Positions 8,035 through 64,000 of a stretch of 64,000 nt of DNA are shown one piece after another (position 1 is the stretch's first letter; each line of letters starts with the position of its first letter). Origin of the DNA: Bacteroidales bacterium (GTDB taxonomy: Bacteria > Bacteroidota > Bacteroidia > Bacteroidales > UBA7332); assembly GCA_028687995.1 (NCBI GenBank), contig JAQTZA010000005.1:186001-250000 (forward strand), read 5' to 3'. The notes below the pieces were generated by a model. The model saw only the letters and a program-made list of their open reading frames with translations. It was not told the DNA's origin and made no database searches. The position numbers were made by a program, and so were the translations under genes.

Positions 8035-9308
8035 CGTTTTTTCTTAGCTAAGAGTTGCGAATACAAATGTACATATTCTTTTGCTACGTAAGATTCTGAA
8101 TAACAATCTTCTACTTTTTTTCGGGCATTAGAAGATAAAACTTTGTAATCAGCCTCCCAGAGACACCAATGAATTCCTTCAGCTAGATTTTCAGCGGACT
8201 TATAAATCGATAGAAAACCGTTTTGTTTGTGTTCAATCATTTCGGGAATTCCCCCAACATAAAATCCTGTTGCAGGTGTACCACAAGCCAAAGATTCCAT
8301 AATGGTGTTAGGTAAATTTTCTTCGAGCGATGGAGTAACAAATAAATCTACCGCACAATAGAGATCTCTGATAGCCTCATTATTGGTTAAATAACCAATT
8401 TGATGAATTGGAAATGGAAATAATGAATCGATATTCTCTTTTGATTTACCAAAAAATACCAATTCAATTTCATTGTTTGTGTCGGGGTATTTTTCTGCGA
8501 GAATCTTACATCCATTCACATAATAATCAATCCCTTTTCGTTTATCGGTGACGTTTGCCGCACCGTAAAGCAGTAATTTCTTATTTACAGGTAGACCAAA
8601 TCGTTCCCTTGCTTTTGCTTTATCCGAAGGTTTGTAGAAATCAATATCCAATGGGTTCGGAATCGCTCTTACATTTTTTGGATTAATCAGTACACTCAGC
8701 TTTGTTCTTCTTTCGAGCCATTTGCTACAGGTCACAAACTCAATGTTGGCTTGTTGCCAGATGCGTCTTTTTTTATAAAAAACTTTGTTTGAAAGGTCAT
8801 TTTCGCTTCTCGTTTCAAGAAAATAACACTCTTTGCACTCTCGTTGATAGTTTTCGCAATCGCGAGAATGGTGACATATAGCAGTCGCTGGCCACATGTC
8901 GTGCATTGTCCAAACAATTGGTTTGCCAAGTTTTGAGAGTCGTTTGATTTCTGATAATGAAAGAAAACCTTGATTGATCCAATGAATGTGAAGTATGTCA
9001 GCCTCTTTAACGGCGGGTAGTTTGCTAATGCGAATTCCAGTATTGGCGATGGATACAGCAAAAAGATTATCTAAACTCAATCCTTTGCCAATGTAAATGA
9101 CCAATCTTTCAAATGCAAATCGGAATTTATTCATCCAAAATGCTACTTTCCCCGAATTAGCAGCAATCACATCTGCATCATCCGTTGATTTATCACGAAC
9201 CAGCATTTTTACCTCTACATCCGATTTCTGAAGTGCACGCATCAATCTTTTGCAAGCCACAGCGGCTCCACCAGTCTGTTCGGATGTATTTATAAGGAGG
9301 ATTTTCAT
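8031..9308 (-). CDS. Family 4 glycosyltransferase
   Basis: GT-B retaining transferase of 425 residues. The N-terminus carries the GT4 glycine motif (TSEQTGGAAVACKRL) and the C-terminal domain the nucleotide-sugar motif EENLPNTIMESLACGTP. A cysteine/histidine cluster near residue 147 (CHHSRDCENYQRECKEC) is typical of a Bacteroidota subgroup and may bind metal or form disulfides. The gene starts 17 nt after a promoter-like TACCTTTG. It is coupled to the GT2 gene downstream. The substrate is unknown. Confidence 0.87.
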   Translation of the reverse strand: MKILLINTSEQTGGAAVACKRLMRALQKSDVEVKMLVRDKSTDDADVIAANSGKVAFWMNKFRFAFERLVIYIGKGLSLDNLFAVSIANTGIRISKLPAVKEADILHIHWINQGFLSLSEIKRLSKLGKPIVWTMHDMWPATAICHHSRDCENYQRECKECYFLETRSENDLSNKVFYKKRRIWQQANIEFVTCSKWLERRTKLSVLINPKNVRAIPNPLDIDFYKPSDKAKARERFGLPVNKKLLLYGAANVTDKRKGIDYYVNGCKILAEKYPDTNNEIELVFFGKSKENIDSLFPFPIHQIGYLTNNEAIRDLYCAVDLFVTPSLEENLPNTIMESLACGTPATGFYVGGIPEMIEHKQNGFLSIYKSAENLAEGIHWCLWEADYKVLSSNARKKVEDCYSESYVAKEYVHLYSQLLAKKKR

Positions 9309-44052: not shown

Positions 44053-45333
44053 TTATTTCAAGAAGTCTGGCTTGAAAGATATCATTACCCAAGCCCAGTT
44101 GTTTGTTGCATTATAATCGCTACCTGCATTCAGTTTTTGAAGAGTCTTAGTCCCAAACATTTGAGAATAGCCCGCGCTCAAAGTTACATTATCAACTAAC
44201 TTATATCCTGCTATCAAGTCAATTTCTGTGCCTAATGCTTTGTCCATTGTTTTAGTTGCATCTGTTGGATCTACTACATCACTAGCTGCAAGGAAATAGT
44301 GAGGAGTCAGCCCTGCATTGAACTTGCCATTTTTGTATGACAGTGTCCCAAAAAGGTCATTCAAACCTACGCTATTGATGTGATTTCCCACATAGAAATA
44401 GTCCATTGAGCCATTAAATTTATGGTTTGTTCCATAAAAAGGATTAAAAGAGTGATTGGTGTAGTTGGCATCTTTCTTGTCCACTTCACTAGTGCCCGAA
44501 AACAACTCCCAACCTAATGCACCACCCCATTTTTCGCTTAGTTTAATATTTGCACCTAACGAAGCATAGTAAGCAGCCAGTTTGCGAAGTGTGGCATCTT
44601 CACCTGAAGTGTTATAGAATGCACTATTCAACGACCAATTTTTCTCGTCGTAAGTCAAGCGCGAACCCAATGTTTGGCTGTATGCAACTTTATAAACTGG
44701 AGTAGGATCTGTCGATTTATTTTGCAAACCATTGTTGAGGAACAACAAACTAATCCCTAAGTTTTGCACTTTCTTGTTAAACCACACAAACTGCATTGCT
44801 TTATAGTTGTTCGCTACTTCATAATTTGTAGTTTTCAACAAATCAGTGCCTTGGTTGAACGCCAAACCAACATGCAATTTGTACCCCTTTTCATATTTGA
44901 ACAGAGCCACATCGTGTGAGCGAGCCTGTTGTGTCCAATCCACATTGCCAAGAATACGAGCATCGTCGTAGTCCAACTCCTGACGACCAAGTTTCATCGA
45001 ACATTCATTCGAAAACATGTATTCAGCCCATCCTTGTTGCACCATCAATTGATTTGAAATAGTGCTCAACTGAGATTGGTCGCCCCAGATGCGCACATCT
45101 TGAATCGTCAAGCGGTACTTTACTTTTTCAGAATTGAATGTAAAGTTTAATCTTGTACGCTGCGTAGTTGCAAAAGCGGCATCATCTTTGTCTGTCACCA
45201 TCGCTTTATAGCCATGACGATACTCCGTTCGAGGGCGATACTCAGCCGATACTTTTAACTGAGCCAGCAAAGAACTTACTGACATAATGCTTATTAAGCA
45301 TAACACTACAATCTGTTTTTGATTTCTTTTCAT
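44053..45333 (-). CDS. Outer membrane porin, alginate-export-like
   Basis: 426-residue outer-membrane beta-barrel with a signal peptide (about residues 1-25, ending SSLLAQ). The mature part has alternating strands (LKVSAEYRPRTEYRHGYKA, RLNFTFNSEKVKYRLTIQDVRIWG, LGRQELDYDDARILG) of the kind seen in the alginate_exp family of general porins. It lies downstream of the nitrate and cofactor genes but has its own strong promoter. A role in nitrate/nitrite passage is an inference from position only. Confidence 0.78.
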   Translation of the reverse strand: MKRNQKQIVVLCLISIMSVSSLLAQLKVSAEYRPRTEYRHGYKAMVTDKDDAAFATTQRTRLNFTFNSEKVKYRLTIQDVRIWGDQSQLSTISNQLMVQQGWAEYMFSNECSMKLGRQELDYDDARILGNVDWTQQARSHDVALFKYEKGYKLHVGLAFNQGTDLLKTTNYEVANNYKAMQFVWFNKKVQNLGISLLFLNNGLQNKSTDPTPVYKVAYSQTLGSRLTYDEKNWSLNSAFYNTSGEDATLRKLAAYYASLGANIKLSEKWGGALGWELFSGTSEVDKKDANYTNHSFNPFYGTNHKFNGSMDYFYVGNHINSVGLNDLFGTLSYKNGKFNAGLTPHYFLAASDVVDPTDATKTMDKALGTEIDLIAGYKLVDNVTLSAGYSQMFGTKTLQKLNAGSDYNATNNWAWVMISFKPDFLK

Positions 45334-45479: not shown

Positions 45480-46409
45480 TCAATGTATATCGAGATCGTT
45501 GATCATGTAGGAACTGTGTATCAAGCTTTCCAAAATCTCAGTCATATACTCTTTTACGCCATTTACACTTCCGGGCAGACTATAAATCAACGTTTTCCCA
45601 ATGACACCAGCCACAGATCGACTGATAAGGGCTTTGGGATTTTGAGCACCATATTTAAGACGAATGTAATCCATAAGTCCGTTCAACTCTTTATCCAGCA
45701 ATGGGCGAACAACTTCGGGTGTAATATCGCGCGGCCCGATTCCTGTACCGCCAGTTGTAAAAATCATATCTGCGCCATCAGCTACCCACTGTTTAATTAA
45801 TGCTCCGAGTTGATCTTTCTCATCAGGGATGATTTGTTTCGTCAACTTACATTCTCTGCGTTTCTCTTTCATATATGCAGTAGCCATATTCTGAATCGTC
45901 TCCCCACTCATATCGCGATAAACCCCCTTATGAGCTCGATCGCTGAGTGTGATTATCCGAATGTCAAACACTTTGGGCTCGTACACCAAGACATCATTCA
46001 CCTCGAGCTGACCACCTTCTACTACTCTGCAAAAGATCCCCTCCTTAGGCATAATGCAGTTGCCGGTGTCGGTGTATATGGCACAACCTGTACCGTGACA
46101 GTGTTTCCCAATCTGGCTCACCTCCAACCGAATTCTATCGAAGCTAAAAATATCGAGTGGAGCGATAGTTGTAGGGATATGGTCGATGGTAATATTTTCG
46201 GCAAAATCACCGTGATTGATGGCTTTACCCATCTCCTCTATAAATTTGTCAATACTATCCTGACCCAACAAGCTGACCTGTCTGTTTTTCATACCTGCAT
46301 GAGCATCGCCCACGACTCCATCTTTATTGAGTAAGAATTGCCCAACCGGTTTCTTTACTATCCCCTTTTTCTCTGAGATATTGAGGGAAATTACTTTTCT
46401 ATTTTCCAT
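45480..46409 (-). CDS. MOSC / MogA-MoaB fusion protein
   Basis: 309 residues. Residues 1 to about 150 form a MOSC domain with VVGDAHAGMKNRQVSLL and the conserved cysteine in HCHGTGCAIY. Residues about 155-309 form a MogA/MoaB-like domain, with FTTGGTGIGPRDITPEV and LIYSLPGSVNGVKEYM. MogA adenylylates molybdopterin before molybdenum insertion by MoeA; MOSC domains handle sulfurated or bound cofactor. Fusing them suggests cofactor insertion or delivery to NarG. It is the last gene of the cofactor operon, overlapping moaC by 1 nt. Confidence 0.87.
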   Translation of the reverse strand: MENRKVISLNISEKKGIVKKPVGQFLLNKDGVVGDAHAGMKNRQVSLLGQDSIDKFIEEMGKAINHGDFAENITIDHIPTTIAPLDIFSFDRIRLEVSQIGKHCHGTGCAIYTDTGNCIMPKEGIFCRVVEGGQLEVNDVLVYEPKVFDIRIITLSDRAHKGVYRDMSGETIQNMATAYMKEKRRECKLTKQIIPDEKDQLGALIKQWVADGADMIFTTGGTGIGPRDITPEVVRPLLDKELNGLMDYIRLKYGAQNPKALISRSVAGVIGKTLIYSLPGSVNGVKEYMTEILESLIHSSYMINDLDIH

Positions 46410-46861
46410 TATATGTCTGTTTTTGTTTTGCTTTTCAATGTAATTGCACCTATTTTCATTTCTTTATCCACAGCTTTGCACATATCATAAACAGTGAGTA
46501 AAGCAACCGAAATGCCTGTAAGCGCTTCCATCTCCACACCTGTTTGCCCAATACACGAAACTGTACACTCAACACTGACGCCAGTTGTCGTGATCTCGAG
46601 TTCCATACCAATTTTGGTAATGAGTAGTGGATGACAAAGCGGTATCAACTGACTGGTCGATTTCGCTCCTTGAATCCCAGCGATGCGAGCGACAGAAATT
46701 ACATCTCCTTTTTTTAAGGCATTCTCCTTGATTAGCTCAATTGTTTTAGGCGCTAACTCTATTTCACCAGAAGCAGTTGCCACACGTTTCTGTGGGTTCT
46801 TGGTCGAAACATCTACCATTGTAGCCTTGCCATTGTTGTCAATGTGTGTTAGATTATTCAT
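46409..46861 (-). CDS. moaC: Cyclic pyranopterin monophosphate synthase MoaC
   Basis: Works with MoaA to convert GTP into cyclic pyranopterin monophosphate. The N-terminus LTHIDNNGKATMVDVSTK, the core LIPLCHPLLITKIGMELE and the segment QTGVEMEALTGISVALLTVYDM are MoaC signatures. Length of 150 residues is normal. It lies 34 nt after moaA and overlaps the MOSC-MogA gene by 1 nt. Confidence 0.95.
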   Translation of the reverse strand: MNNLTHIDNNGKATMVDVSTKNPQKRVATASGEIELAPKTIELIKENALKKGDVISVARIAGIQGAKSTSQLIPLCHPLLITKIGMELEITTTGVSVECTVSCIGQTGVEMEALTGISVALLTVYDMCKAVDKEMKIGAITLKSKTKTDI

Positions 46862-46895
46862 CTTATTATTTTTTTGTAAATGGGCAATTTATACT

Positions 46896-47699
46896 CTATC
46901 CTCCGATATTTGAGAAGCGGTTTTTAGAGTTTATTTCACCACGCTCGGGTTTATTGTCAATTGTTTTCAAGAATGCACTCTCTATGCCCTCTTCTCGTAT
47001 GCTGTATGCTCTATCGTTAAACAAGCAAGGCTTGAAATATCCATTTGCTGTAAGTCGTATGCGATTGCAAATCTTACAATCTCCTCCTTCACCACCTTCC
47101 ACAGGCCAGAAATAGCCCTTTTTGAGATCCATTTGACGGATAAATCGAAGTTGCAATCCATTTGAGTTGCAGAAATTCTCAAGTTTTGCTCTATCGGCAG
47201 CAGAGAAATCTTCGGTTCTCACACAATTAATCTTAATTGGAGAAAATCCAATCTTTTGTGCCTTTTCAATTGCTCTTAATAAATGGGGTAATTGACCCCC
47301 AGAGGTCAACCGTTCAAATTTAGCAGCGTCCAGTGTATCGAGGCTAATGTTAATGCGTTTTAGTCCAGCATCGAAAAGAGGTTGAGCGTATTTGTGAAGC
47401 AACATCCCATTTGTTGTAAGCCCAACATCATTTATTCCTTCAACAGAGGTGATAGCTTTCACAATCTCAATAATATCCGGACGAAACAGTGGCTCGCCAC
47501 CAGTCAACCGGATTTTACGAATCCCATAAGGCACCAATGTCGTAACCACATTTCGAATCTCTTCTACTGTAAGAATTTCTTCTGCGGGCATAAACTTCAA
47601 ATCCTTATCGGGTGGCATACAGTAGAGACAGCGTAAATTACACTGATCAGTGACCGAAATGCGCAAGTAAGATATACTTCTATCAAAGTGGTCTAACAT
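46896..47699 (-). CDS. moaA: GTP 3',8-cyclase MoaA, compact form
   Basis: Radical SAM enzyme for the first step of molybdopterin synthesis. The radical SAM cluster has C20, C24 and C27 (CNLRCLYC); the GTP-side cluster has C208, C211 and C225 (CKICNRIRLT...KPC). The protein ends in NIGG, the expected catalytic Gly-Gly tail. At 267 residues it is about 60 shorter than usual; the missing part lies between RFIRQM and the second cluster. All motifs are in frame, so this looks like a natural short form. It overlaps moeA by 17 nt. Confidence 0.87.
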   Translation of the reverse strand: MLDHFDRSISYLRISVTDQCNLRCLYCMPPDKDLKFMPAEEILTVEEIRNVVTTLVPYGIRKIRLTGGEPLFRPDIIEIVKAITSVEGINDVGLTTNGMLLHKYAQPLFDAGLKRINISLDTLDAAKFERLTSGGQLPHLLRAIEKAQKIGFSPIKINCVRTEDFSAADRAKLENFCNSNGLQLRFIRQMDLKKGYFWPVEGGEGGDCKICNRIRLTANGYFKPCLFNDRAYSIREEGIESAFLKTIDNKPERGEINSKNRFSNIGG

Positions 47700-48861
47700 C
47701 TACAATTTCTCCTTTCTTTATTTCTGAAACACCTTCTCCCATAATTGCAAATCCAAATATATTTTTCAATCCTGCAATGTGGGCAGAACCGTGGAATTCT
47801 GTCTTTACAACTTCTCCCTCTTGATTGAGCGCCACAGGTAAGAAAAGCACTCTTGTACTATTTTTACGTTTAAAAGCATCACCCGAAACTGCTTTAATAT
47901 TTCGTTTGTTGTGTATTGTTCCCAACAGATTTGAAATCAGTGGTTTCACAAGTAATTCGCACTGCAAAAAGGAAGATACTGGATTGCCCGACAACCCAAA
48001 TATGTGCTTTCCTTTTTTTGTTGCGTAAAGTACTGGTTTGCCTGGCTGTATGCCTACTTTCTGAAAATGCATTTGAAAGCCTGACTCTTGAAGAATCTGA
48101 GGAATGAAATCAAAATCGCCGACCGATGCTCCTCCTGTAATAATAACTAAATCGTTTTGACGAATCAATTCATCAATTTTCGTGGTTATGAGACTTCTAC
48201 TGTCTGTTATAATTCCGTGATAATGTGCTTGTGCACCAGCCTCCTCTATTTGAGCAATGATTTGCGACGAATTACTATTACGAATAGTCACGCCAGTCGG
48301 AACAACGTCTGGTTCAACCAATTCAGAGCCAGTACAAAAGAAGGCTACTTGAGGTTGTTTCGTTACCGAAATATTGGTTTTTCCCACCGAAGCAAGTGTA
48401 GCCAATATTTGAGCAGTGATTCGTGTTCCAGCACTCAATACTTCACTTCCATACTTAATATCTTCACCTCTAAAACAGATATTGGTTTGTGTTTTTGTAT
48501 CATTAATCGAAATCGTATCTTTCGAAAGTTCAGTAGTCTGCTCCACCATCACCACACAATCAGCACCATCTGGCACTTTAGCCCCTGTCATTATTTTCGT
48601 ACATTGCCCCTTCAATATCGTTTTTTGAGGCATTGTCCCTGCTGGAATCGTTTCAATAACTTCAAGGGGAAGTTCCAAATCTTCCCGACGACACGCGTAT
48701 CCATCCATTGCCGACTTGTTAAAGGGAGGCATATCTACATCCGACAAGACTGACTCTGCCAATACCCGTCCAATAGATTGGTTCAGAGGAATTATTTCGG
48801 TTTCCGAAATTGCTATGCAATTAGCATTTACTAAATCAATAGCTGTTGTGAGTGAGATCAT
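47683..48861 (-). CDS. moeA: Molybdopterin molybdenumtransferase MoeA
   Basis: Inserts molybdenum into adenylylated molybdopterin. ATG 48861 (MISLTTAIDL...) gives 392 residues, the family norm. The upstream in-frame extension to 49014 lies within mobB and is rejected. Signatures are PPFNKSAMDGYA, KIMTGAKVPDGAD, FFCTGSELVEP, ITGGASVGDFDF and FGLSGNPVSSF. It begins 1 nt after the mobB stop and overlaps moaA by 17 nt. Confidence 0.94.
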   Translation of the reverse strand: MISLTTAIDLVNANCIAISETEIIPLNQSIGRVLAESVLSDVDMPPFNKSAMDGYACRREDLELPLEVIETIPAGTMPQKTILKGQCTKIMTGAKVPDGADCVVMVEQTTELSKDTISINDTKTQTNICFRGEDIKYGSEVLSAGTRITAQILATLASVGKTNISVTKQPQVAFFCTGSELVEPDVVPTGVTIRNSNSSQIIAQIEEAGAQAHYHGIITDSRSLITTKIDELIRQNDLVIITGGASVGDFDFIPQILQESGFQMHFQKVGIQPGKPVLYATKKGKHIFGLSGNPVSSFLQCELLVKPLISNLLGTIHNKRNIKAVSGDAFKRKNSTRVLFLPVALNQEGEVVKTEFHGSAHIAGLKNIFGFAIMGEGVSEIKKGEIVDVRPL

Positions 48862-48862
48862 T

Positions 48863-49387
48863 TTATATAAATTTCCAAATTTGATTTTTAAATGTAATGT
48901 TACCAAGATTGAGATTAAACGTAAATCCATCATACCGAACAACAAAATCACCAATCCTAAAAGGCTTGCCACTATCCTCGTTTCCCAAAATGTGAAGATG
49001 AACCCCTGGCTCATAGAAATCAGCTAAACCTCCAGATTCACAAACTATGGCAGCTTCAGCATCGATATGAGGCAGCAAGGTTTTCATCGCCTCTCCAACG
49101 GCATCTTTTGCGGCAATAATAAAGTAGGCACTTTTTGCTCCAGCACGAAGCATTCGCGAACTATCTTTAGGTTGAGCGTCATTCTGTTCACGATAAATCA
49201 CATATTGATCGGACGAAGCGAGCATTGGCATCTCATAGGTTAACGACTTTTGATGATGCGTAATTTTCACACCTACAACAGGCTGATTTACACCAAACTG
49301 CTCGATAATACGACAGACGAGTGTGGTCTTTCCCGTATTTTGTCCACTCCCAGAAACAATCAACAAATTTGGCTGATAGACTCTCAT
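48863..49387 (-). CDS. mobB: Molybdopterin-guanine dinucleotide biosynthesis protein MobB
   Basis: GTP-binding adaptor that helps MobA add GMP to the cofactor. The P-loop is SGSGQNTGKTTL at about residues 12-23, and GVKITHHQKS follows. It has 174 residues. It overlaps mobA by 4 nt and abuts moeA. NarG needs the bis-MGD form, so mobA and mobB fit the locus. Confidence 0.88.
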   Translation of the reverse strand: MRVYQPNLLIVSGSGQNTGKTTLVCRIIEQFGVNQPVVGVKITHHQKSLTYEMPMLASSDQYVIYREQNDAQPKDSSRMLRAGAKSAYFIIAAKDAVGEAMKTLLPHIDAEAAIVCESGGLADFYEPGVHLHILGNEDSGKPFRIGDFVVRYDGFTFNLNLGNITFKNQIWKFI

Positions 49388-49959
49388 ATAGCTGCATTTA
49401 CTATTTGTGAATAATCCTCCTTTGTGTTTATATTAATCAACTTATTGCACTGCTCGCTATCTTCAATTTCGAAAATCAACGTATTAGCCTGCTTTAATAG
49501 GCTTTGCAACGAATGCTTGTCGTTTTCAATCTGAGATTTCAATAGTGGTAGAATATTTTTCCGATAAACACCGCATACAGGTAGTGGCCAGCCATTTATC
49601 GAAGGTACAATTGCATCGTAATTGCGTCGATTTTTCACTAATAAATCAATAATCTGACTGTTCACAAACGGCATATCACATGCTAAAAAAAGATTCCATT
49701 CTGTATTTGAAGCTTTCAGGCAAGAAAACAGTCCACCAATAGGTCCAATAGGCGCAAACTCATCAGAAATGACACGTTTCTTAAGGTAATCGTAATTCGA
49801 GCTGTTACTACTGATGATAATCTCAGAACAATAGATAGAGAGCAATGCAATAGGATAATCGATAAGCATGCGGTTGTTGTGTACCAACAAACCTTTGTCG
49901 GTACCCATGCGGCTCGATTTACCTCCTGCCAAAACGATTCCTGTGATTGCGTCTTCCAT
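49384..49959 (-). CDS. mobA: Molybdenum cofactor guanylyltransferase MobA
   Basis: Transfers GMP to molybdopterin to form MGD. The N-terminal nucleotide motif is VLAGGKSSRMGTDKGLL; GPIGGLFSCL and LFLACDMPFV are family motifs with the metal-binding aspartate. It has 191 residues. It lies 2 nt after the TauE-like gene and overlaps mobB by 4 nt. Confidence 0.92.
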   Translation of the reverse strand: MEDAITGIVLAGGKSSRMGTDKGLLVHNNRMLIDYPIALLSIYCSEIIISSNSSNYDYLKKRVISDEFAPIGPIGGLFSCLKASNTEWNLFLACDMPFVNSQIIDLLVKNRRNYDAIVPSINGWPLPVCGVYRKNILPLLKSQIENDKHSLQSLLKQANTLIFEIEDSEQCNKLININTKEDYSQIVNAAI

Positions 49960-50870: not shown

Positions 50871-52463
50871 CTAGCTTGGTTTTTCGCACCCTTTGCGGTT
50901 ATAAAAATACCAGTTGACAATGGTTGCAAGCACAGCAAATGCAATCAAACCATAGAAGAATGTATTCGCACTACCTGAAGCTTTAATGCTATTTCCAATC
51001 AACGAATTAAATATAAATGGACCAAATGCTGCAATGGCTGCTGTCCAGCCAATAACACCTGCTGCTTGACGCTGGTTTTCTGCAAAAATGATTGGGTACT
51101 GACGGAATGTTCCTGCATTACCAACTCCGGTGAAAAAGAAGATAGACAACATCACAGCCACAAACATTGGGAATTGATCCATAGAGGTTGGAGCAACCAA
51201 GTGCATGGTCACCAACAGCACAGAGCCTACAATAATACCAAATCCGGTAATTGTGGTCAAGATTGCACCACCCACTTTATCGGCAATAAAACCAAACAAC
51301 ACACGACTAGACGCTCCAATAAGCGGACCATAAAACGCATAAGTCAATGGATCAGGAGCATTGGGGAAATCGCCATACAAGACTTTAATCATCAATGGGA
51401 ATGCCGCGGAAAGACCTGCAAAAGTGCCAAAGGTCATCACATAAGTGATGGTACAAAACCAAGTATGTTTGCTGCCGAAGATATCCAATTGTTCTTTGAA
51501 AGAAGCTGTCACTGGAATACTTTTCAAATAAATCCAAGCAACAATTGTGAGAATAATTAGGAACGGAATAAACCAAAAACTGGCAGATTGGATATATATC
51601 TCTTTATTTTTAATACATGGCGAATTGGCATCAATTTTGCCAAGCACTTTAGCTGCAAGTTTTGGATGGCTTGCGCTAATTGCTTTGGCTTGCGCCTTTG
51701 CAGGTAAAGCAGCCAATATCAAACCTGCATTTTTAGATCCAATCGCTGTTGATACAGAATCTACTATCTTTGGTTTTGCTGCAGATAGAATCTTTGTTTG
51801 CTGAACCGAATCTAACAACAAAAACAGGGCAGAGCGCGAAGTTTGATCCATTGCCGTAAACTGTTTAACGGTCTCTTTTGTATCGATGGATGTAAAAGTA
51901 GCAGCAGCGCCGTAAGTAGCTACACCGATAATCAGTGGCGTAACGAACTGAACAACTGAAACACCAAAATTACCAATCCCTGCTTGAATACCTAATGCTG
52001 TCCCTTTCAATCTTTTAGGAAAGAAAAGGCTCGTACTTGGCATAAACGACGAAAAATCGCCTCCACCAAAACCAGCTGTAAAAGCCAGAACCATGAATAT
52101 CCAGAATGGTGTGGTTGGATCCATTACTGCAAAGCCTATCCCAACTACAGGAATCAATTTTATAAGTGTAGAAATAGAGACCACCTTACGTGTTCCGTAG
52201 ATTGGTAACAAAAATGTGTGAATGATGCGTAAAATACCAGCTGCTAGACCCGGCATTGCCGCAAGCCAAAAGAGTTGATCTTTAGTGTATGTGAATCCCA
52301 ATCCCGGTAATTTCACTACAATTGCACTCATCACAAACCACGTACTGAAAGAAAAAATTAATGCGAATGTTGTGATCCACAAAGTTTTCCAAGCAATCTT
52401 CTTTCCGGTTGATTCCCAAAAAATGGGATCTTCAACATTCCAATTCTCAATAATTTTAGACAT
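50871..52463 (-). CDS. narK: NarK-type nitrate/nitrite transporter with TM5-TM6 insert
   Basis: Major facilitator protein of 530 residues from ATG 52463; the in-frame extension to 52667 enters the preceding narK gene and is rejected. The nitrate signatures are GFGGGDFSSFMPSTSLFFP (about residues 131-149) and GVGNAGTFRQYPIIF. About 100 extra residues (191-292), Ala/Lys-rich and helical, split the protein before a later TM (SFWFIPFLIILTIVAWIYL). It follows another narK by 38 nt. Nitrate/nitrite antiport or proton symport cannot be told apart. Confidence 0.85.
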   Translation of the reverse strand: MSKIIENWNVEDPIFWESTGKKIAWKTLWITTFALIFSFSTWFVMSAIVVKLPGLGFTYTKDQLFWLAAMPGLAAGILRIIHTFLLPIYGTRKVVSISTLIKLIPVVGIGFAVMDPTTPFWIFMVLAFTAGFGGGDFSSFMPSTSLFFPKRLKGTALGIQAGIGNFGVSVVQFVTPLIIGVATYGAAATFTSIDTKETVKQFTAMDQTSRSALFLLLDSVQQTKILSAAKPKIVDSVSTAIGSKNAGLILAALPAKAQAKAISASHPKLAAKVLGKIDANSPCIKNKEIYIQSASFWFIPFLIILTIVAWIYLKSIPVTASFKEQLDIFGSKHTWFCTITYVMTFGTFAGLSAAFPLMIKVLYGDFPNAPDPLTYAFYGPLIGASSRVLFGFIADKVGGAILTTITGFGIIVGSVLLVTMHLVAPTSMDQFPMFVAVMLSIFFFTGVGNAGTFRQYPIIFAENQRQAAGVIGWTAAIAAFGPFIFNSLIGNSIKASGSANTFFYGLIAFAVLATIVNWYFYNRKGCEKPS

Positions 52464-52501: not shown

Positions 52502-53989
52502 TTATTTTGCAGGAAGTTCCATAGTCACCTCTTTCTCTTTTTGTTTGAGCTTCTGCACAACATTGTACATCCATACAAAACAGATTACAGAAAGGAAAAA
52601 CATAAATATCCAACAACTGGTCCAAAGACCTGTGCCTTCGAGCAAATAACCAAAAAGAATAGGGCAAACAAAACCGCCGAGACCACCAATTACGCCAACC
52701 ATACCACCAACCACTCCTACTTCGTTGGGGAAATAGTCTGGAATAAGTCGATAAACGGCCGCTTTACCAATGCCCCAAATACTTCCAATCAGAAAAACTA
52801 GAATGGCAAAAATCCAAAGATTTGCTTCGAAAGTAAGAATGGTAAATCCTTTTATCAACAATTGTTTTGGTTTTACTTTATCCCCCACTTTCACCACAGG
52901 CTCTTGCCACGACTCTTTTACTGGGAATATTGAACTTTCAGTTTTCTCAGTTTCAGTCTTTACTTTTCGAGCTTCATATTTAATAGTCAAATGCCCTACC
53001 TTGACGTATTGATCAGTCACTTCAGTGACTACACCACCAAACTTTGCATTAACACCCTTTCCAGGTGATTTGAGCTCCATTTTCGGAACTATCAACAAAA
53101 AACAGATAATGATTGAAGACCCAAGAACCCAATACATTACTTTTCTTCCGCCAAACTTATCTGAAAGCCATCCACCAGCGGCTCGAATAAGACCAGATGG
53201 CAAGCTAAATACTGTTGCAAAAAGACCTGCTGTGACAAGTGGCAAATAATACACATTTGTAAAATAGGGAACTAACCATTGAGAGAATGCAACAAAGCAA
53301 CCAAATACAAGGAAATAGTACAGCCCAAAACGCCATACACGCGCACTTTTGAGAGGTTGTAGCATTTGACGAACTGTTTTCCCACTCGACTCGGGCTTTT
53401 TGTTAGTAGTGAAAAGAAGAAAGAGAATACCCATTATGACAAGCGCGATAGCATAAATCACGGGCAAAGTTCTCCAACCATCCAAATACTTACCATTGTC
53501 TGTCAGATTATTCAAAATAGATGGCGCAAGCATTGTTGTGATAGCTGCACCAGCATTTCCTGCACCAAAAATTCCAAGGGCGCGGCCTTGCCAATGTTTC
53601 GGATACCAAACAGATGTAAACGCAATACCTACAGCAAATCCAACTCCTGTAAGACCAAAACCAAAACTGCATAAAGCAAAAGCGAAAAAGCTATTTGCTT
53701 GCGACAAAAAATACATCGGAATTGCACATAAAAGCAATAAAATACCATAGACTGGTCTGCCTCCAAACTTGTCGGTGAGCATACCTGCTGGCAATCTAAA
53801 GATCGAGCCGGTCAATACAGGAATCCCCAGCAACCAACCAATCTCGACTGGACCCCAGTTGAAAATTTCATTTCCTGCTAAAAAAGTAACAAGCACACCA
53901 TTGAGCATCCAACATGCAAAACAGACGGTGAAAGCCAGCGTATTCAACGCCAATATTCGATGTGCTTTTCCTGTAACTTGTGTTTCCAT
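52502..53989 (-). CDS. narK: NarK-type nitrate/nitrite transporter with TM9-TM10 insert
   Basis: Major facilitator protein of 495 residues with 12 expected TM segments. Signatures are RLPAGMLTDKFGGRP after TM2, GFGLTGVGFAVGIAFTSVWYP, and GGWLSDKFGGRK after TM8. Residues 303-388 are an extra, largely beta domain (FGGVVTEVTDQYVKVG, later VVKVGDKVKPKQLLIKG) with a lipoyl/barrel-like look. It starts 13 nt after narI and is the first of two narK genes. Confidence 0.86.
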   Translation of the reverse strand: METQVTGKAHRILALNTLAFTVCFACWMLNGVLVTFLAGNEIFNWGPVEIGWLLGIPVLTGSIFRLPAGMLTDKFGGRPVYGILLLLCAIPMYFLSQANSFFAFALCSFGFGLTGVGFAVGIAFTSVWYPKHWQGRALGIFGAGNAGAAITTMLAPSILNNLTDNGKYLDGWRTLPVIYAIALVIMGILFLLFTTNKKPESSGKTVRQMLQPLKSARVWRFGLYYFLVFGCFVAFSQWLVPYFTNVYYLPLVTAGLFATVFSLPSGLIRAAGGWLSDKFGGRKVMYWVLGSSIIICFLLIVPKMELKSPGKGVNAKFGGVVTEVTDQYVKVGHLTIKYEARKVKTETEKTESSIFPVKESWQEPVVKVGDKVKPKQLLIKGFTILTFEANLWIFAILVFLIGSIWGIGKAAVYRLIPDYFPNEVGVVGGMVGVIGGLGGFVCPILFGYLLEGTGLWTSCWIFMFFLSVICFVWMYNVVQKLKQKEKEVTMELPAK

Positions 53990-54002: not shown

Positions 54003-54725
54003 TTAATTGTTTTTAGGTTTAATTCCCATTCGTTTTTCGCGCGATGCACGCGATGCTTTTAAATCTCTATTCCAAATGACCAACTGAACATTACGCCACA
54101 AATAACGTACTGGATAAGCGACAAAATGGATCAACCGGCTAAAAGGTATTAGTCCAATAAAAACAAATGCAGAAATTACATGAAGCTTAATCATCAATGG
54201 CATTGTTGTTATTACCGCTGTATCGGGCGAGAAAATAAAGATAGAACGCAAGTAAGGCACCAACGCCGAGGCGTACCACGCAGTACCCCAACGATGAAAA
54301 TAGGCGATAGTCAAACCTGTCAAAATCTGAAAAGCAATAACGGTATAAACCACTAAGTCCATTTTTGATGTGACGGAATGGAGTCTTTTCACTTGTACAC
54401 GTCGGATAATCAACAATAAAATCCCGACAAAAGACAATATTCCGAATGCAAAAGCAGTAATCTCTATGACAAGAAGCCACAAAGGTGTTGCGGTCAGAAA
54501 AATAATTGTTTTGGGTATTAAAAACCCAACAATGTGCCCAATTAAGAGCACCACAATACCTGAATGAAACAGTCGACTTCCCCAAAACAGTTTTTTAGAT
54601 TCTAGGAATTGTGACGAATGACTTGTTACCGAATATCCGTAATAATTCACCCGAAGAATAGTGCCAATTACACATAAGAACAGAGCAGCATAAGGCAGTC
54701 CGATTAATAAAAATGAATCAATCAT
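54003..54725 (-). CDS. narI: Respiratory nitrate reductase gamma subunit NarI
   Basis: Inner-membrane di-heme b subunit that oxidises quinol and passes electrons to NarH. It has 240 residues with 5 TM segments. Histidines suited to heme b lie in LFHSGIVVLLIGHIVG (TM2) and in KLHVISAFVF...RLIHFVAYP (TM5). The C-terminus is basic and cytoplasmic. It lies 10 nt after narJ. Presence of NarI shows that direct quinol input is possible despite the cytochromes encoded upstream. Confidence 0.92.
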   Translation of the reverse strand: MIDSFLLIGLPYAALFLCVIGTILRVNYYGYSVTSHSSQFLESKKLFWGSRLFHSGIVVLLIGHIVGFLIPKTIIFLTATPLWLLVIEITAFAFGILSFVGILLLIIRRVQVKRLHSVTSKMDLVVYTVIAFQILTGLTIAYFHRWGTAWYASALVPYLRSIFIFSPDTAVITTMPLMIKLHVISAFVFIGLIPFSRLIHFVAYPVRYLWRNVQLVIWNRDLKASRASREKRMGIKPKNN

Positions 54726-54735
54726 AGCTTAGATA

Positions 54736-55353
54736 TTAATGTTTTTTACCACTTAATTTTGTAAAGTCCATACCACAAGAATAGACACCAGTGCTTTCAA
54801 TTTCTCGCTGGTTTATCTTGTATGTTTTGAATTCCGAATCCCGATAATCTGCCTCCAAAACTCGAATAAGCAGACTCAGTAGAATTTGGTATTTGTTATC
54901 TTTATTCCTGAAATTATCATACATGTGCCTCAAGGCAGGCATTATCATCGTCACCACAAGCTCTTCTCTGAAAAGGTTATCTTCTAGTTTTGGTAACAAC
55001 GTGAGCATATTGGGCAAATGATCGGCAAACTCTTTGCCACAGTCATTCTTTGCTTTTAGCTGTTCACTATTCATGTTCAACAGAAATTGCCCTCTTTTGG
55101 ACTCTTCTCCGAAAAGCACATAACCAATATCGAGGTAGCACGATGCATTTACGTCGAATGTACTGATATAATACTCCTGCAAACTTGCAGAATCATTTGT
55201 AGTAAAATGTTCGGCAACAGAGAGAAAATCATCAACAGCACCCGTTCCATAATGCGCCAATTCAGTACAGAGTTCGGCAGTTGGGCGAACGAAGTCGAGG
55301 GTGGGATAGCTAAATAATTGAGCAAATAACGGATAGGTTTTCATTCTAATCAA
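54736..55353 (-). CDS. narJ: Nitrate reductase assembly chaperone NarJ
   Basis: TorD/NarJ-family chaperone that holds apo-NarGH while the molybdenum and heme cofactors are added; not part of the final enzyme. All-helical, 205 residues, with the family N-terminus (YPLFAQLFSYPTLDF) and YYISTFDVNASCYLDIGYVLFG in the middle. A second ATG at 55344 could be the start. It lies between narH (60 nt) and narI (10 nt). Confidence 0.9.
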   Translation of the reverse strand: MIRMKTYPLFAQLFSYPTLDFVRPTAELCTELAHYGTGAVDDFLSVAEHFTTNDSASLQEYYISTFDVNASCYLDIGYVLFGEESKRGQFLLNMNSEQLKAKNDCGKEFADHLPNMLTLLPKLEDNLFREELVVTMIMPALRHMYDNFRNKDNKYQILLSLLIRVLEADYRDSEFKTYKINQREIESTGVYSCGMDFTKLSGKKH

Positions 55354-55413: not shown

Positions 55414-56904
55414 TTAAAAGACTCTTTTATAACCCTTATTTTCGTTGAAACCTGAGCTACCTTTGCGGTCGTCGGTACTCTCAATCATTTCGATTGCCTC
55501 TTCGCGATGAGCTGCTGGAATTACAAATCGTTCGTCGTATTTCACCAACGAAGTCAAACGATAAATGGCATCGGCAATGTCTGGGGTCAATCCTGTTGAT
55601 TTATAAGCATGCTGTATCAATTCGTCGTCGATATCATTTACAGTCACCTGACGGCGATGGTAACGAACAGCCATCAATTTACGCATCACTTCACGTATTT
55701 TCTCCTCGTTTCCAGCAGAAAATAGGTTTGCCATATATTGCATTGGAACACGAGAATCTTCAATTTTTCCCCATAAGTTCTCTGTGTTCGATTCGTAAAT
55801 TCCATCTGTCATTTTCCCCATCACTGGCAACATTGGTGGGACATAAAATAGACTTGGCAATGTGCGGAATTCAGCATGAAGTGGCAATGCAATTCTCCAC
55901 TCTTTTACAAATTTGTAAACAGGTGATTTTTGAGCAGCTTCGATAGTAGAATCGGCTATTCCATTCTTTTTGGCTTCGCGAATAACCTTTTCATCGAATG
56001 GGTTCAAGTATATATCCAACTGACGATCAATCAATTGATCTTCTGGAGCAGATGCAAACTCTTTAATTTTGTCGGCATCGTATAGCAAAACGCCTAAATA
56101 GCGAATTCGTCCAACGCACGAGTGCATGCAAGCAGGTGCTTGACCCGACTCGAGGCGTGGATAACACAGAACGCATTTTTCAGACTTTCCACTCGTCCAG
56201 TTGTAATACGTTTTTTTATACGGACATGCCGTAACACACAATCTCCAACCACGGCATTTATCTTGACTAATCAATACCACTCCGTCTTCACCACGTTTGT
56301 AAACAGCGCCGCTTGGGCAAGCCGCTACACAGGTTGGGTTAAGGCAGTGATTACACATACGTGGCAAATATTGCATCGTCATGCGCTCCAACTGAAACAT
56401 TGCTTCTTGGTCTTCTGCCGTTAGATTTCGAAGATTAACATCTTGGCGTCCATAGTCAGGAGTTCCGCTCAAATCGTCATCCCAGTTTGGTCCGCCTTTA
56501 ATATCCATTGGTTCACCTGTAACCAGTGAAATTGCTCGAGCAGAAGGCTGATCGTCTCCAGCAGGAGCTTCAAACAAATGGTCATAATCATACACCCACG
56601 GTTCGTAGTAATCGTCCATTACTGGCATATCGGGATTGTGGAAGAGTTTGGTCAGCCCAGTTGGCTTTCCAGCAACGCGAAGCTCCAATTTGTCTCCATT
56701 TTTCACCCAACCGCCTTTGTAGATTGACTGATCTTCCCATTTAGTAGGATAACCTGTTCCAGGTTTGGTTTCAACATTGTTCCACCACATGTACTCAGCA
56801 CCTTTGCGATCTGTCCAAATATTTTTGCATGCGACCGAACACGTGTGACAACCGATACATTTATCGAGGTGAAACACCATTGCGATTTGCGATCTTATAT
56901 CCAT
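55414..56904 (-). CDS. narH: Respiratory nitrate reductase beta subunit NarH
   Basis: Electron-transfer subunit with four iron-sulfur clusters. The first motif holds C16, C19, C22 and C26 (CIGCHTCSVAC). Later come CNHCLNPTCVAACP, then CRGWRLCVTACP, where Trp replaces a Cys as expected for the 3Fe-4S cluster, and CVLCYPRLESGQAPACMHSC. Length is 496 residues, close to the family norm. It lies 19 nt after narG. Confidence 0.95.
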   Translation of the reverse strand: MDIRSQIAMVFHLDKCIGCHTCSVACKNIWTDRKGAEYMWWNNVETKPGTGYPTKWEDQSIYKGGWVKNGDKLELRVAGKPTGLTKLFHNPDMPVMDDYYEPWVYDYDHLFEAPAGDDQPSARAISLVTGEPMDIKGGPNWDDDLSGTPDYGRQDVNLRNLTAEDQEAMFQLERMTMQYLPRMCNHCLNPTCVAACPSGAVYKRGEDGVVLISQDKCRGWRLCVTACPYKKTYYNWTSGKSEKCVLCYPRLESGQAPACMHSCVGRIRYLGVLLYDADKIKEFASAPEDQLIDRQLDIYLNPFDEKVIREAKKNGIADSTIEAAQKSPVYKFVKEWRIALPLHAEFRTLPSLFYVPPMLPVMGKMTDGIYESNTENLWGKIEDSRVPMQYMANLFSAGNEEKIREVMRKLMAVRYHRRQVTVNDIDDELIQHAYKSTGLTPDIADAIYRLTSLVKYDERFVIPAAHREEAIEMIESTDDRKGSSGFNENKGYKRVF

Positions 56905-60556: not shown

Positions 60557-61426
60557 TTATTTTGAAATTTTTTCTTGTCTTTTGATAATCTCCTCGTTCA
60601 CACTCGTGCGACGACGACGTCCCCAAATAAGCAATATAGCGGCTACAATCAAGAAGGCAGCCACAAGGGTATAGCTTATCATCCACGCACTCGATTTTGC
60701 GGGTTCAGTAGCATTTTGCTCATCTGTGTGTTTGAGAAACAATCCGATGTAAGCTATTTCATCGTCAGTTACAGGAGCATTTTTGTAGCTTTGGTTCATC
60801 GAAGGAAATGGTGCAGACTGTATAAATCCTTTAACACCTGCAAATCCACCAACTCGCGAATGTACTTTAGTAAGATCTTTGGCAAGTATTCCCCCTCTAT
60901 TTTCGCCATCAGAAGTTGCATTGTGGCACGATGCACACGAAACACCTCCATTTGTAAATGAACGAGTTCCGTAGAACAGTTCACGCCCAACTTGAATATC
61001 TTGTGGCGAATTTGCTTTTAATATAGAATCAACACGGTGTTGCGATGCTGCCGCAAGTGGATCGACAGTCTCTGCGCCTGAGCTTCCACCATCAATATGG
61101 TCGAGAAGTTTTACTACCTGTTCATCTGTCATTGCATTGTCAGGCATCGGCATATTGTTGTACTCCTTAAATAGGGCTACAGCATCTGCATCGCCTGCTT
61201 TTTGAATTTTCACTGGCGACTGAATAAATTTCACGAGCCACTCTTTAGTCCTACGCTTGGTCACACCTTTTAAATCGGGCCCAACCGTTTTTCCTCCACC
61301 GATTGTATGACAAGCCACACACGATTTATACAGTGTGGCACCATCTTGCGCTTCAGTTGTCACACTACAAAGCAAAGCTGTTGTCAGTAATCCGAGTGAT
61401 ACAAATGTTTTAAAACGTATTTTCAT
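60557..61426 (-). CDS. Di-heme cytochrome c, NarC-like
   Basis: 289 residues from ATG 61426; the TTG at 61435 is a weaker start. A signal peptide (residues 1-26) leads to two class I cytochrome c modules with CVACH at 36-40 and CASCH at 164-168, and a C-terminal TM (about 240-262, SYTLVAAFLIVAAILLIW) anchors it with the hemes in the periplasm. It lies 21 nt before narG, the place held by narC in Thermus-type nar operons. It may pass electrons to or from the Nar complex; the partner is inferred. Confidence 0.87.
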   Translation of the reverse strand: MKIRFKTFVSLGLLTTALLCSVTTEAQDGATLYKSCVACHTIGGGKTVGPDLKGVTKRRTKEWLVKFIQSPVKIQKAGDADAVALFKEYNNMPMPDNAMTDEQVVKLLDHIDGGSSGAETVDPLAAASQHRVDSILKANSPQDIQVGRELFYGTRSFTNGGVSCASCHNATSDGENRGGILAKDLTKVHSRVGGFAGVKGFIQSAPFPSMNQSYKNAPVTDDEIAYIGLFLKHTDEQNATEPAKSSAWMISYTLVAAFLIVAAILLIWGRRRRTSVNEEIIKRQEKISK

Positions 61427-61469
61427 AGCATTCAAATAAATTGTTTTTATCGTATTTGTTTTGTTTCAC

Positions 61470-61946
61470 CTACGCAGTTAATTCAAATTCTGTTTTCCAA
61501 ACGGTCCCAGTCTCTTCCGACGAAATAGTGAGTTCGAGCATCTTTTTATTTGCATCGGTCACCACCTCTTTACGATCAATAACTTTACCATTTCCATTCT
61601 CCTTATGTTTCACTATATCTCCAATGCGAGGCATAAAAGGGTATGTGATTGTAAGTCGTTGATCCTCATCTTCGACTAATTTTATAGCTTCATTGAATAG
61701 AATTGTTTCAAACATCTCTACAAACTCCTCCTCTTTCATTGTTTTCAACTCATTCTCTGTCAAACCTTCAACCCATTCCAAGAAAATGGTTGAAGTTCGT
61801 TTTCGAGTGGTCTCTTTAATTGCTTTTGGGAAAGGACTACGAACGTGTTGATGATCTGTGAACCAATAATCAAATCCTGGCTCGATAAATCTGCTTTTTA
61901 TCGCCTCATGAACTTTCGATAAATCTGTCGTATCTGTTTGGCACAT
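61470..61946 (-). CDS. Unknown protein between two cytochrome genes in the nar operon
   Basis: Unrecognised 158-residue acidic protein (ATG 61946; an in-frame TTG at 61955 is possible). No signal peptide, TM or CXXCH. The first 100 residues are helical and charged (FLEWVEGLTENELKTMKEEE). The C-terminal part, starting PFMPRIGDIVKHKENGNGK, looks like a small beta barrel with SH3-like character. Encoded between two c-type cytochrome genes in one operon, it probably acts in the cytoplasm as an assembly or regulatory factor, but this is only inferred. Confidence 0.75.
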   Translation of the reverse strand: MCQTDTTDLSKVHEAIKSRFIEPGFDYWFTDHQHVRSPFPKAIKETTRKRTSTIFLEWVEGLTENELKTMKEEEFVEMFETILFNEAIKLVEDEDQRLTITYPFMPRIGDIVKHKENGNGKVIDRKEVVTDANKKMLELTISSEETGTVWKTEFELTA

Positions 61947-61957
61947 ATTGTACAAGG

Positions 61958-62842
61958 CTATTTAGTGAATATTTTTCCTGCTTTCTTCAATTTAGCTAGG
62001 CTGAAAATGACATAGAAAATGGCTGACCACACGCCAAGTATAATCGCATTAGCGAGTAATAGCAACCAAATTGGAGCTTTATCCTGCGCTCCCCATAGTT
62101 CTCGTTGATTAAACTGTTCGTCGTAGGTTGCTAACTGTTTTCCCCACTGTTTTGTCACACTAGATTCTACATCATTATAGAGAAAATTATTTTCAATTTT
62201 GGTCACAATAGTTAGATTTCCCTCTGAATTACCGATAATATCATCAGGTACAACCACTGTTACTTTACCATCCGCCGAGGTTGGATTGGACGCGTGTCCA
62301 ATTCTCATCATCCCAAAATCGCGCTTTACATAAAAATGCACGTCTATATCAGCAATGGGTGTTTTGGTTGAATCGGACGCTGTCACAAAAGCTGTCACAG
62401 AGTTTGGAGACTCGGATGTGGTTATGTCCAATTTTACGTCCACCGCAGCTGGCACCATGGTCGGATTAACCAAAACCCTTAAATAGTTTACCAAGGCCCA
62501 ACGATCCTCCTCCTTTAAACTCTTAAATGAAGGCATCTGTCCCTTTCCTATACTCAACTTATAAAAAATTGCACCGTCGGTTTGCTTCTGAAAGACAGCT
62601 GAAATAAGCGATGTACTTTTCATCAATCCATTTCCATCGGCTTTGCTGCCGTGGCAAGAAACACAAGATTGAGCAAAAATATTTTTCCCAACCGCGACGT
62701 TTTTGGGTGTGACTGGGAATGAATTTATTTTTGCTGCATCGGATTCCGAGACAAGCCATGGTGAAGTTTGTGCAACAATTTCAGAAGAAAATACGATACA
62801 AACCAAAATAATCAGGATGTTGATAGATGCTCTCATTTGCAT
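61958..62842 (-). CDS. Mono-heme cytochrome c with C-terminal membrane anchor
   Basis: 294 residues. A signal peptide covers about 1-24, a single heme site CVSCHGSKADG lies at C60-C63-H64, with a likely Met ligand in GKGQMPSF. A beta-rich domain (about 130-245) without heme follows, resembling Ig-like or CcoP-accessory folds (VTASDSTKTPIADIDVHFYVKR). A TM lies at about 255-278. It overlaps the upstream nrfD-like gene by 10 nt, which argues for a joint complex. Confidence 0.85.
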   Translation of the reverse strand: MQMRASINILIILVCIVFSSEIVAQTSPWLVSESDAAKINSFPVTPKNVAVGKNIFAQSCVSCHGSKADGNGLMKSTSLISAVFQKQTDGAIFYKLSIGKGQMPSFKSLKEEDRWALVNYLRVLVNPTMVPAAVDVKLDITTSESPNSVTAFVTASDSTKTPIADIDVHFYVKRDFGMMRIGHASNPTSADGKVTVVVPDDIIGNSEGNLTIVTKIENNFLYNDVESSVTKQWGKQLATYDEQFNQRELWGAQDKAPIWLLLLANAIILGVWSAIFYVIFSLAKLKKAGKIFTK

Positions 62843-64000
62843 GAATTCTTTATTATACCATTACTTATTCCTTTTTCGTGTGCCGTTTCCCAAATTGGAA
62901 TAATTGGAAAAACCTTAAGAAAAAGTGTGATTACCAATGCCACACCTGCAAAGCTGCCAACAACAATCAACGACTCAGGGATCGTTGGAGTATAGTGATG
63001 GTAGCTTTCGGGATAATTCTGCACGGGTAGAAATGGGTGAAGCATAGTTGGTGTTACTATCAGAAATCGTTTTAGAAATGCACCAATAATAACGAATATA
63101 GAAATTACAAGTACGGCTTTTGGTTTGCGAAATGGCTTAAAAATCATCAGAAAGATTGGGATAACCATACCAGCAATTTGTACAAACCAAAACATTGATG
63201 AAAAATGGCCAAAGAACAAACCATTGATGTGTTCTCCATCAAGGGTTTTCATTTTATAGGCAGGTACAAGGTATTCGTTGATATTAAAATATAGATAAAC
63301 TAAGGAGGTCAAAACCAATAATTTAGCCATCATATCAAAATGATAATCAGTAATGTATTTCGCATAGTTGTATCGGATTCGAACAATAAACATGAGTAAT
63401 ATTACTGCCGCAGCACCAACCATAAAAGCCCCTGACACAAAATAAGGACCAAAGATGGTGGAATCCCATCCTGGTCGGAGTGTGGTTGCAAATAGCCACG
63501 AAGTTACTGTGTGTATCGCCAGTGCAACGGGCACAATAAGCACGATTAGAACATTGATTGAACGCTCCAGTATTTTGAACTGCTCATCAGTTCCTTGCCA
63601 TCCCATCGATAATATTTGGTAAGTCTTTTGTTGCCATTTAGGTTTGTTATTCATCCTTTGTCGAAGCAAAGCAATATCGGGTATCATTGGCAAATAGAGC
63701 AAAAGCAAACTGATGACCAAATAGGTATTCACTACAATAATATCCCATACAATGGGAGATTGAATACGACCATAAACGAAAATATGCCACAGCCGATCTG
63801 GCCGGCCCATATCTACTACAATAATTGTAAGTGCTCCTACAACTGCTGCTACAGCTATCACTTCAGCTATTCGAGTTAGTGGTGTTGTCCACTTTACGTT
63901 CGACAGTTTAAGTATTGCTGTTATCAACGAACCAACGAGACTGACAGCAATCAAAAACACAAAGTCGGAAATGTAAAGCCCCCACGATGCAATGTCGCGC
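62833..64000 (-). CDS. NrfD/PsrC-family membrane subunit (5' end cut by window)
   Basis: Polytopic quinone-interacting subunit of the NrfD/PsrC/ActC type with about 9-10 TM segments. The reading frame is open to the right edge (RDIASWGLYISDF before the GTG at 63960), so the N-terminus is outside the window; WGLYxxDF is typical of NrfD proteins. Conserved-looking parts include MGRPDRLWHI and the later PTMLHPFLPVQN. Such subunits normally pair with an iron-sulfur subunit, expected just beyond the edge. It overlaps the cytochrome gene by 10 nt. Confidence 0.86.
   Translation of the reverse strand, partial: RDIASWGLYISDFVFLIAVSLVGSLITAILKLSNVKWTTPLTRIAEVIAVAAVVGALTIIVVDMGRPDRLWHIFVYGRIQSPIVWDIIVVNTYLVISLLLLYLPMIPDIALLRQRMNNKPKWQQKTYQILSMGWQGTDEQFKILERSINVLIVLIVPVALAIHTVTSWLFATTLRPGWDSTIFGPYFVSGAFMVGAAAVILLMFIVRIRYNYAKYITDYHFDMMAKLLVLTSLVYLYFNINEYLVPAYKMKTLDGEHINGLFFGHFSSMFWFVQIAGMVIPIFLMIFKPFRKPKAVLVISIFVIIGAFLKRFLIVTPTMLHPFLPVQNYPESYHHYTPTIPESLIVVGSFAGVALVITLFLKVFPIIPIWETAHEKGISNGIIKNSCK

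Follow-up and report, generated by a model that had tools for sequence, protein, structure and literature searches.

The 64,000-nucleotide stretch analysed here (the window; positions 186,001 to 250,000 of contig JAQTZA010000005.1 from a Bacteroidales bacterium, genome G000) ends within an operon that encodes a nitrate reductase, NarGHJI, preceded by a quinol-binding subunit of the NrfD type and two membrane-anchored cytochromes c. A preliminary description of the window reported that NrfD, a monohaem and a dihaem cytochrome and a protein of no known family directly precede a complete narGHJI with short gaps, and we find these genes where it placed them, all on the minus strand. The contig continues 3.2 kb past the window, and the start of the operon was found there. 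Fetched loci carry L numbers, L003 being this contig past the window end. Domain assignments rest on Pfam and NCBIfam profiles, with support for NrfD (1.9e-34), the cytochrome c domains, NarG (TIGR01580, 1431 bits) and NarI. The central features are the following:

L003:12208-13134, beyond position 64000: 4Fe-4S subunit with a signal for twin-arginine translocation (Tat), 308 aa, 12 bp upstream of nrfD
62833..64000, minus strand, cut by the window end: NrfD/ActC-like quinol-binding membrane subunit, complete at L003:10834-12195, 453 aa
61958..62842, minus strand: monohaem membrane-anchored cytochrome c, with one CxxCH, an ActE-like haem domain, then a beta-sandwich and a C-terminal transmembrane segment
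61470..61946, minus strand: u161, a soluble protein of no named family, 158 aa (the open reading frame runs to 61955, 161 aa)
60557..61426, minus strand (the open reading frame runs to 61435): NarC-type dihaem membrane-anchored cytochrome c, with two CxxCH and a C-terminal transmembrane segment
56924..60535, minus strand: narG, Thermus-type, cytoplasmic catalytic subunit
55414..56904, minus strand: narH
54736..55344, minus strand: narJ, chaperone
54003..54725, minus strand: narI, with haem ligands H54, H64, H182 and H200 kept and the quinol-site motif lost
54477..54479, minus strand: NarI codon TGG (Trp83), aligned with E. coli K86

The dihaem cytochrome is a signal-bearing, C-terminally anchored homologue of NarC. 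Such a cytochrome stands immediately upstream of narG in 44 of the 45 nar loci examined, the exception being a nar of the conventional type. A profile built from these dihaem cytochromes matches Thermus NarC at 1e-46, and the NarG encoded here is 58% identical to Thermus NarG vs ~47% to proteobacterial NarG. Because the profile finds Thermus NarC and NarG is nearer to Thermus than to proteobacteria, we identify the dihaem cytochrome by homology as the NarC of Thermus-type nar operons, a subunit that is already known. The dihaem cytochrome is thus nothing exotic, NarC being the rule rather than the exception among Bacteroidota nar operons; the monohaem one belongs with the iron-sulfur (FeS) subunit and NrfD in a trio of genes. 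Interaction of NarC with NarI, and a need for NarC in membrane assembly, are known from Thermus alone (PMC7694296). Our locus resembles the Thermus NarCGHI cluster (PMC7694296) in carrying a dihaem membrane cytochrome directly before narGHJI in the same gene order; it differs in that the Thermus cluster lacks the FeS-NrfD-cytochrome module, and Thermus NarI keeps the Trp, Asn and Arg of the quinol motif discussed below.

We next consider the trio itself. NrfD matches ActC of alternative complex III at 1e-48 to 1e-49, and the haem domain of the monohaem cytochrome compares with ActE at Z scores of 11.9-12.2, with other class-I cytochromes scoring close; fold comparison of its beta-sandwich gave no convincing named match. 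It had been suggested that ActB-like subunits with iron-sulfur and molybdopterin domains might precede nrfD. An FeS protein resembling DsrO and the FeS part of ActB is indeed there, but it has no molybdopterin domain. The multihaem ActA, the molybdopterin-like half of ActB, ActD and ActF are likewise absent from the cluster, which sets it apart from the full ActABCDEF complex. The best NCBIfam scores of the FeS protein and NrfD are to DsrO and DsrP of the DsrMKJOP complex, but at 181.5 of 200 and 158.1 of 350 bits, respectively, they fall under the equivalog cut-offs; furthermore, the operon is without DsrM, DsrK and the trihaem DsrJ, the partner being a monohaem class-I cytochrome instead. 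The NrfD quinol site is present (D128, S146 and D151, with R376 as the gate; residues per PMC8076601), and Asp128 replaces His139 of ActC, as it does in DsrP. In 41 of 41 module NrfDs, the Ser and Asp of the quinol site are conserved without exception, as is the gate Arg (residues per PMC8076601). Judged by these matches, the trio is an abbreviated alternative complex III with ActB2-, ActC- and ActE-like subunits, and it offers structural work a compact three-subunit relative of that complex.

This genome has exactly two NrfD genes. The second belongs to a paralogous FeS-NrfD-monohaem cytochrome trio that is followed by SCO and a caa3 oxidase (L005 7315-14862, G000:C3), the only haem-copper oxidase found in the genome. 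Since the paralogous trio precedes SCO and caa3, a quinol:cytochrome c role of the trio would be fitting. In other genomes, homologous trios with the same gene order usually stand alone or precede caa3. This observation is compatible with a second possibility, namely that the module, as a quinol:cytochrome c oxidoreductase for general anaerobic use, has merely come under the nar promoter, a separate but co-regulated enzyme, and that any change in NarI reflects tuning to another quinone or neutral drift. Routine occurrence of the module without nar had also been put forward as evidence against coupling. Although homologues do often occur alone or with caa3, coupling is not thereby refuted, because the nar-linked modules form a clade of their own that matches the NarG clade.

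To describe this distribution, we call a nar operon linked if the trio is joined to it and unlinked if it lacks the trio. Linked operons, with the trio joined to narC-narGHJI, were found in six genomes: this one, L124, L125 (with L176), L126, L150 and L130/L158. L176 is the second half of the L125 operon and was obtained by a search among relatives of G452. Synteny is shared among these genomes: the order FeS-NrfD-cytochrome-u161-NarC-narGHJI recurs in four other Bacteroidota genomes (L124, L125 with L176, L126 and L150), and u161 is missing in L130/L158. In the linked set, neither haem motif of NarC is lost, and its conserved positions are almost all retained. A set of 40 nar neighbourhoods was retrieved from the class sample, some of them ending at contig ends, and the trio occurs in none. 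No close NrfD was found in genomes of the same genus or family, and in one family member, G397, the only narG is a conventional one (46% identity). The nar-linked operons form one clade in each tree, whether built from NrfD, from the FeS protein with the cytochrome (support 100/99) or from NarG (approximate likelihood-ratio test, 99), and their branching order agrees between the NrfD and NarG trees; this agreement argues against separate enzymes. The closest unlinked NarG, that of L159, has u161-narC-narG without NrfD. The simplest reading of these trees is that the module was gained once ahead of an existing narC operon and has been retained since.

A related arrangement has apparently arisen independently. 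In L152 (G480:C24:900-20800), a complete actABCDEF, with a hexahaem ActA and an ActB of 1008 aa, lies directly before narC-narGHJI-narK-narK on the same strand. Excerpts of an earlier report record 13 instances of nar genes beside six-gene clusters resembling alternative complex III, in metagenome-assembled genomes of Planctomycetota and KSB1 (PMC10732223). There too an NrfD-type complex adjoins nar genes; according to the same excerpts, those complexes are full-size and downstream of nar, the authors consider a possible nitrite reductase or respiratory complex, and NarI is not analysed there (PMC10732223).

If the module delivers electrons to the nitrate reductase, a trace might be left in NarI. 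NarGHI is the textbook quinol-oxidising redox loop, and K86 of E. coli NarI takes part in quinol binding. The effect of a K86A substitution on quinol binding was reportedly described by Bertero et al. in 2005; our literature search on this residue returned PDB titles only, for NarI-K86A and H66Y. The E. coli NarI sequence used as reference agrees with the aligned PDB chain, a few residues of that entry excepted. The haem ligands and K86 were picked for inspection ahead of reading the alignment. In total, 6 linked NarI were compared with 50 unlinked Thermus-type NarI, Thermus among the latter. At the K86 position, every one of the 50 unlinked proteins has Arg, and the basic residue is lost in 5 of 6 linked vs 0 of 50 unlinked. 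In the linked proteins the residue is Trp in this genome and Gly in three others, with Arg only in L158, the most basal of them; L176, fetched after the first alignment, also has Trp. The neighbouring Trp and Asn of the motif W-x5-R/K are changed in 6 of 6 linked proteins, and each is kept in 49 of 50 unlinked ones. By contrast with this motif, the four haem-ligand histidines and R112 are kept in every NarI compared.

These data bear on whether module and reductase are separate enzymes. Retention of Arg in the linked L158 is in line with that proposal, as is the drift of some unlinked NarI at other conserved positions (12/69 in L159 and 11/70 in L163). However, these drifting proteins all keep Arg, and so does Thermus, which departs at 21/70 positions and still has the Trp, Asn and Arg. 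Because Thermus and L159 depart at that many positions yet keep Arg, fast drift as the sole cause of the Arg loss is a poor explanation. We consider it improbable that the two are separate enzymes sharing a promoter.

What, then, could the electrons reach? The genome is 99.99% complete. Profile searches found no NrfA (no PF02335 match), NirK or cd1 nitrite reductase in it, bc1, cytochrome bd and cytoplasmic NirB not being among the families searched for. No haem-copper nitric oxide reductase (NOR) was found, the one COX1-family gene being the caa3, and no NosZ by TIGR04246, which had matches in seven other genomes and replaced PF18764 after the latter matched no control. The suggestion that the module serves a later nitrite or nitric oxide (NO) step therefore fails here: NrfA, NirK, cd1 and NosZ were rejected as recipients because these families are absent from this genome, and haem-copper NOR was rejected because the sole COX1-family gene is the caa3. 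That leaves two recognised consumers of periplasmic electrons, namely Nar via NarC, and caa3, for which a separate module exists. Since the genome lacks NrfA, NirK, cd1, haem-copper NOR and NosZ, nitrate is likely the electron acceptor of the operon's chain.

The same inventory bears on a branch point like that described for Thermus, where nitrite and NO respiration need NarC and outward electron transport has been proposed (PMC7694296). Under such a scheme, NarGHI still oxidises quinol, and the module and NarC constitute a cytochrome pool for other acceptors, here chiefly caa3 and in relatives NrfA. The presence of NrfA in three linked genomes and the paralogous module that serves caa3 would fit this scheme. 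It is at odds with a genome that has no other searched nitrogen-oxide reductase and in which caa3 already has its own module, and with a NarI quinol motif that is degraded precisely in the linked genomes. We regard a branch point as unlikely, although less so than separate enzymes.

Instead, we favour, with a modest degree of confidence, a chain in which the abbreviated alternative-complex-III module, and not NarI, is the main site of menaquinol oxidation. Because the quinol-site Arg/Lys has been lost in linked genomes, the module probably feeds nitrate reduction, in which case NarI need not oxidise quinol itself. The preliminary description had already proposed a second quinol-oxidising complex tied to nar, and co-inheritance together with the NarI change, which was not visible to it, strengthens that proposal. 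Menaquinol would bind NrfD on the periplasmic side, and its electrons would pass to the Tat-exported 4Fe-4S subunit and then to the anchored monohaem cytochrome. From there they would move to the two haems of NarC and on to the haems b of NarI, inward across the membrane, and finally via NarH to NarG, where nitrate would be reduced in the cytoplasm. NarI would thus have been turned into a haem b wire that accepts electrons from cytochrome c. Since ion movement is ascribed to subunits of the NrfD type, one more coupling site could come with the extra complex, on top of the 2 charges per 2 electrons that an ordinary NarGHI loop provides. The direction of flow, the physical contact with NarC and any pumping are steps that we infer from gene content and conserved residues. 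More tentatively, and with somewhat less confidence than we place in the route of menaquinol oxidation, NarI may have lost its quinol site after an ion-moving module was captured before narC, giving a single-operon nitrate respirasome with an added coupling site.

A comparable route has been described for Streptomyces coelicolor, whose Nar1 requires bcc-aa3 and copurifies with it (PMC7931247). There, too, a menaquinol:cytochrome c complex would pass electrons to the haem b of NarI with no direct quinol oxidation; the difference is that the bc-type donor is encoded elsewhere, whereas here an NrfD module lies in the nar operon together with NarC (PMC7931247). The gap of ~505 mV between menaquinol and nitrate was part of the thermodynamic argument for Nar1 acting with bcc (PMC7931247). 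The argument applies to our operon as well and allows for an extra coupling site. The linked lineage makes testable what was proposed for Streptomyces Nar1, a cytoplasmic nitrate reductase fed periplasmically through cytochrome c. If true, an extra energy-conserving step could yield the cell more energy per nitrate. The NrfD module, co-inherited with nar in one operon and matched by the loss of the NarI quinol motif, likely makes this a new form of nitrate respiration.

Several observations weigh against a module that feeds NarI. The electron flow proposed for Thermus NarC is the opposite one, outward from NarI (PMC7694296), and the paralogous trio shows that such a module can feed an oxidase. 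The linked operons share one ancestor, so that the NarI change represents one or two evolutionary events and not six independent ones. L158 is linked and yet retains Arg, and in L152, which has a full alternative complex III, the NarI quinol motif is intact. That the K86 position has a role in quinol binding is known from E. coli and not from Thermus-type enzymes.

The start of the operon bears on one further alternative. The remaining features of the operon and its head are:

L003:14628-15098, beyond the window end: Rrf2-family regulator, divergent
L003:13794-14495, beyond the window end: RIC, a di-iron Fe-S repair protein (NO damage)
L003:13182-13787, beyond the window end: hemerythrin-domain protein
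52502..53989, minus strand: narK-like nitrate/nitrite transporter 1 of the major facilitator superfamily (MFS)
50871..52463, minus strand: narK-like MFS nitrate/nitrite transporter 2

The enzyme could run in reverse as a nitrite oxidoreductase, with electrons passing from nitrite through NarGH, NarI and NarC to caa3 and the NrfD module driving reverse electron flow to quinone. The Nitrobacter enzyme has a similar cluster, in which a NarC homologue passes electrons outward (PMC7694296); a nitrite oxidiser could also do without a NarI quinol site, and caa3 is present in the genome. However, RIC, hemerythrin and Rrf2 at the operon head accord with NO stress while nitrate/nitrite is being reduced; NrfA, a nitrite-reducing trait, occurs in linked relatives; and NarG falls among ordinary Bacteroidota nar operons. 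Reverse operation thus seems very improbable. In a nitrate-respiring cell, the three genes at the operon head would fit protection against by-product NO.

From nrfD to narK, neighbouring genes overlap by up to 10 bp or are separated by up to 60 bp. The region between Rrf2 and RIC contains TTTG-N20-TACATTTG, a promoter pattern of the Bacteroidota type and the sole such match on the operon strand in the 15 kb scanned. Terminator-like sites between 52 and 64 kb number 14, vs 10.5 (standard deviation 3.1) in shuffles, and none of those scanned falls between the cytochrome genes and narG, where an independent promoter and terminator would have spoken against the preliminary description. Because the only operon-strand promoter pattern precedes RIC and no terminator-like site separates the cytochrome genes from narG, RIC through narK are probably a single transcript. 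A near-perfect palindrome, TTTACGTTTGCAAATGTAAA, in the Rrf2/RIC gap (L003 14496-14627) overlaps divergent promoter-like sites and is a candidate operator for the Rrf2 regulator. A Tat motif was looked for in the narG product and none was found.

Many Bacteroidota nar loci have a u161 homologue close to narK or narC, and the family has invariant RxPFP and YPxxPR motifs. The protein has no Pfam or NCBIfam match above cut-off. No transmembrane segment or signal is predicted, and it is therefore probably cytoplasmic. Its AlphaFold model (pLDDT 91) shows an N-domain made of helices and, C-terminally, a small SH3/KOW-like domain, the best fold match being a weak one (E 0.03) to the SH3-like domain of EF-P/CarD. 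An assembly, accessory or regulatory role would be a guess.

Other observations concern neighbouring and related loci. In L163 and L168, a Thermus-type and a conventional narG adjoin on one contig, and L137 (Lutibacter) and L138 carry two or three tandem FeS-NrfD-cytochrome modules per cluster. Downstream of the narK genes and in the same orientation, positions 45480-49959 carry molybdenum-cofactor genes, named by sequence only: mobA, a mobB-like gene, moeA, moaA, moaC and a MOSC/moaB-like fusion. An outer-membrane porin-like protein is encoded near the nar operon both in the window (44053-45333, EYRPRTEYRHG) and in L125 (~7630-8991, ELRPRFEY), and is possibly a nitrate or nitrite porin.

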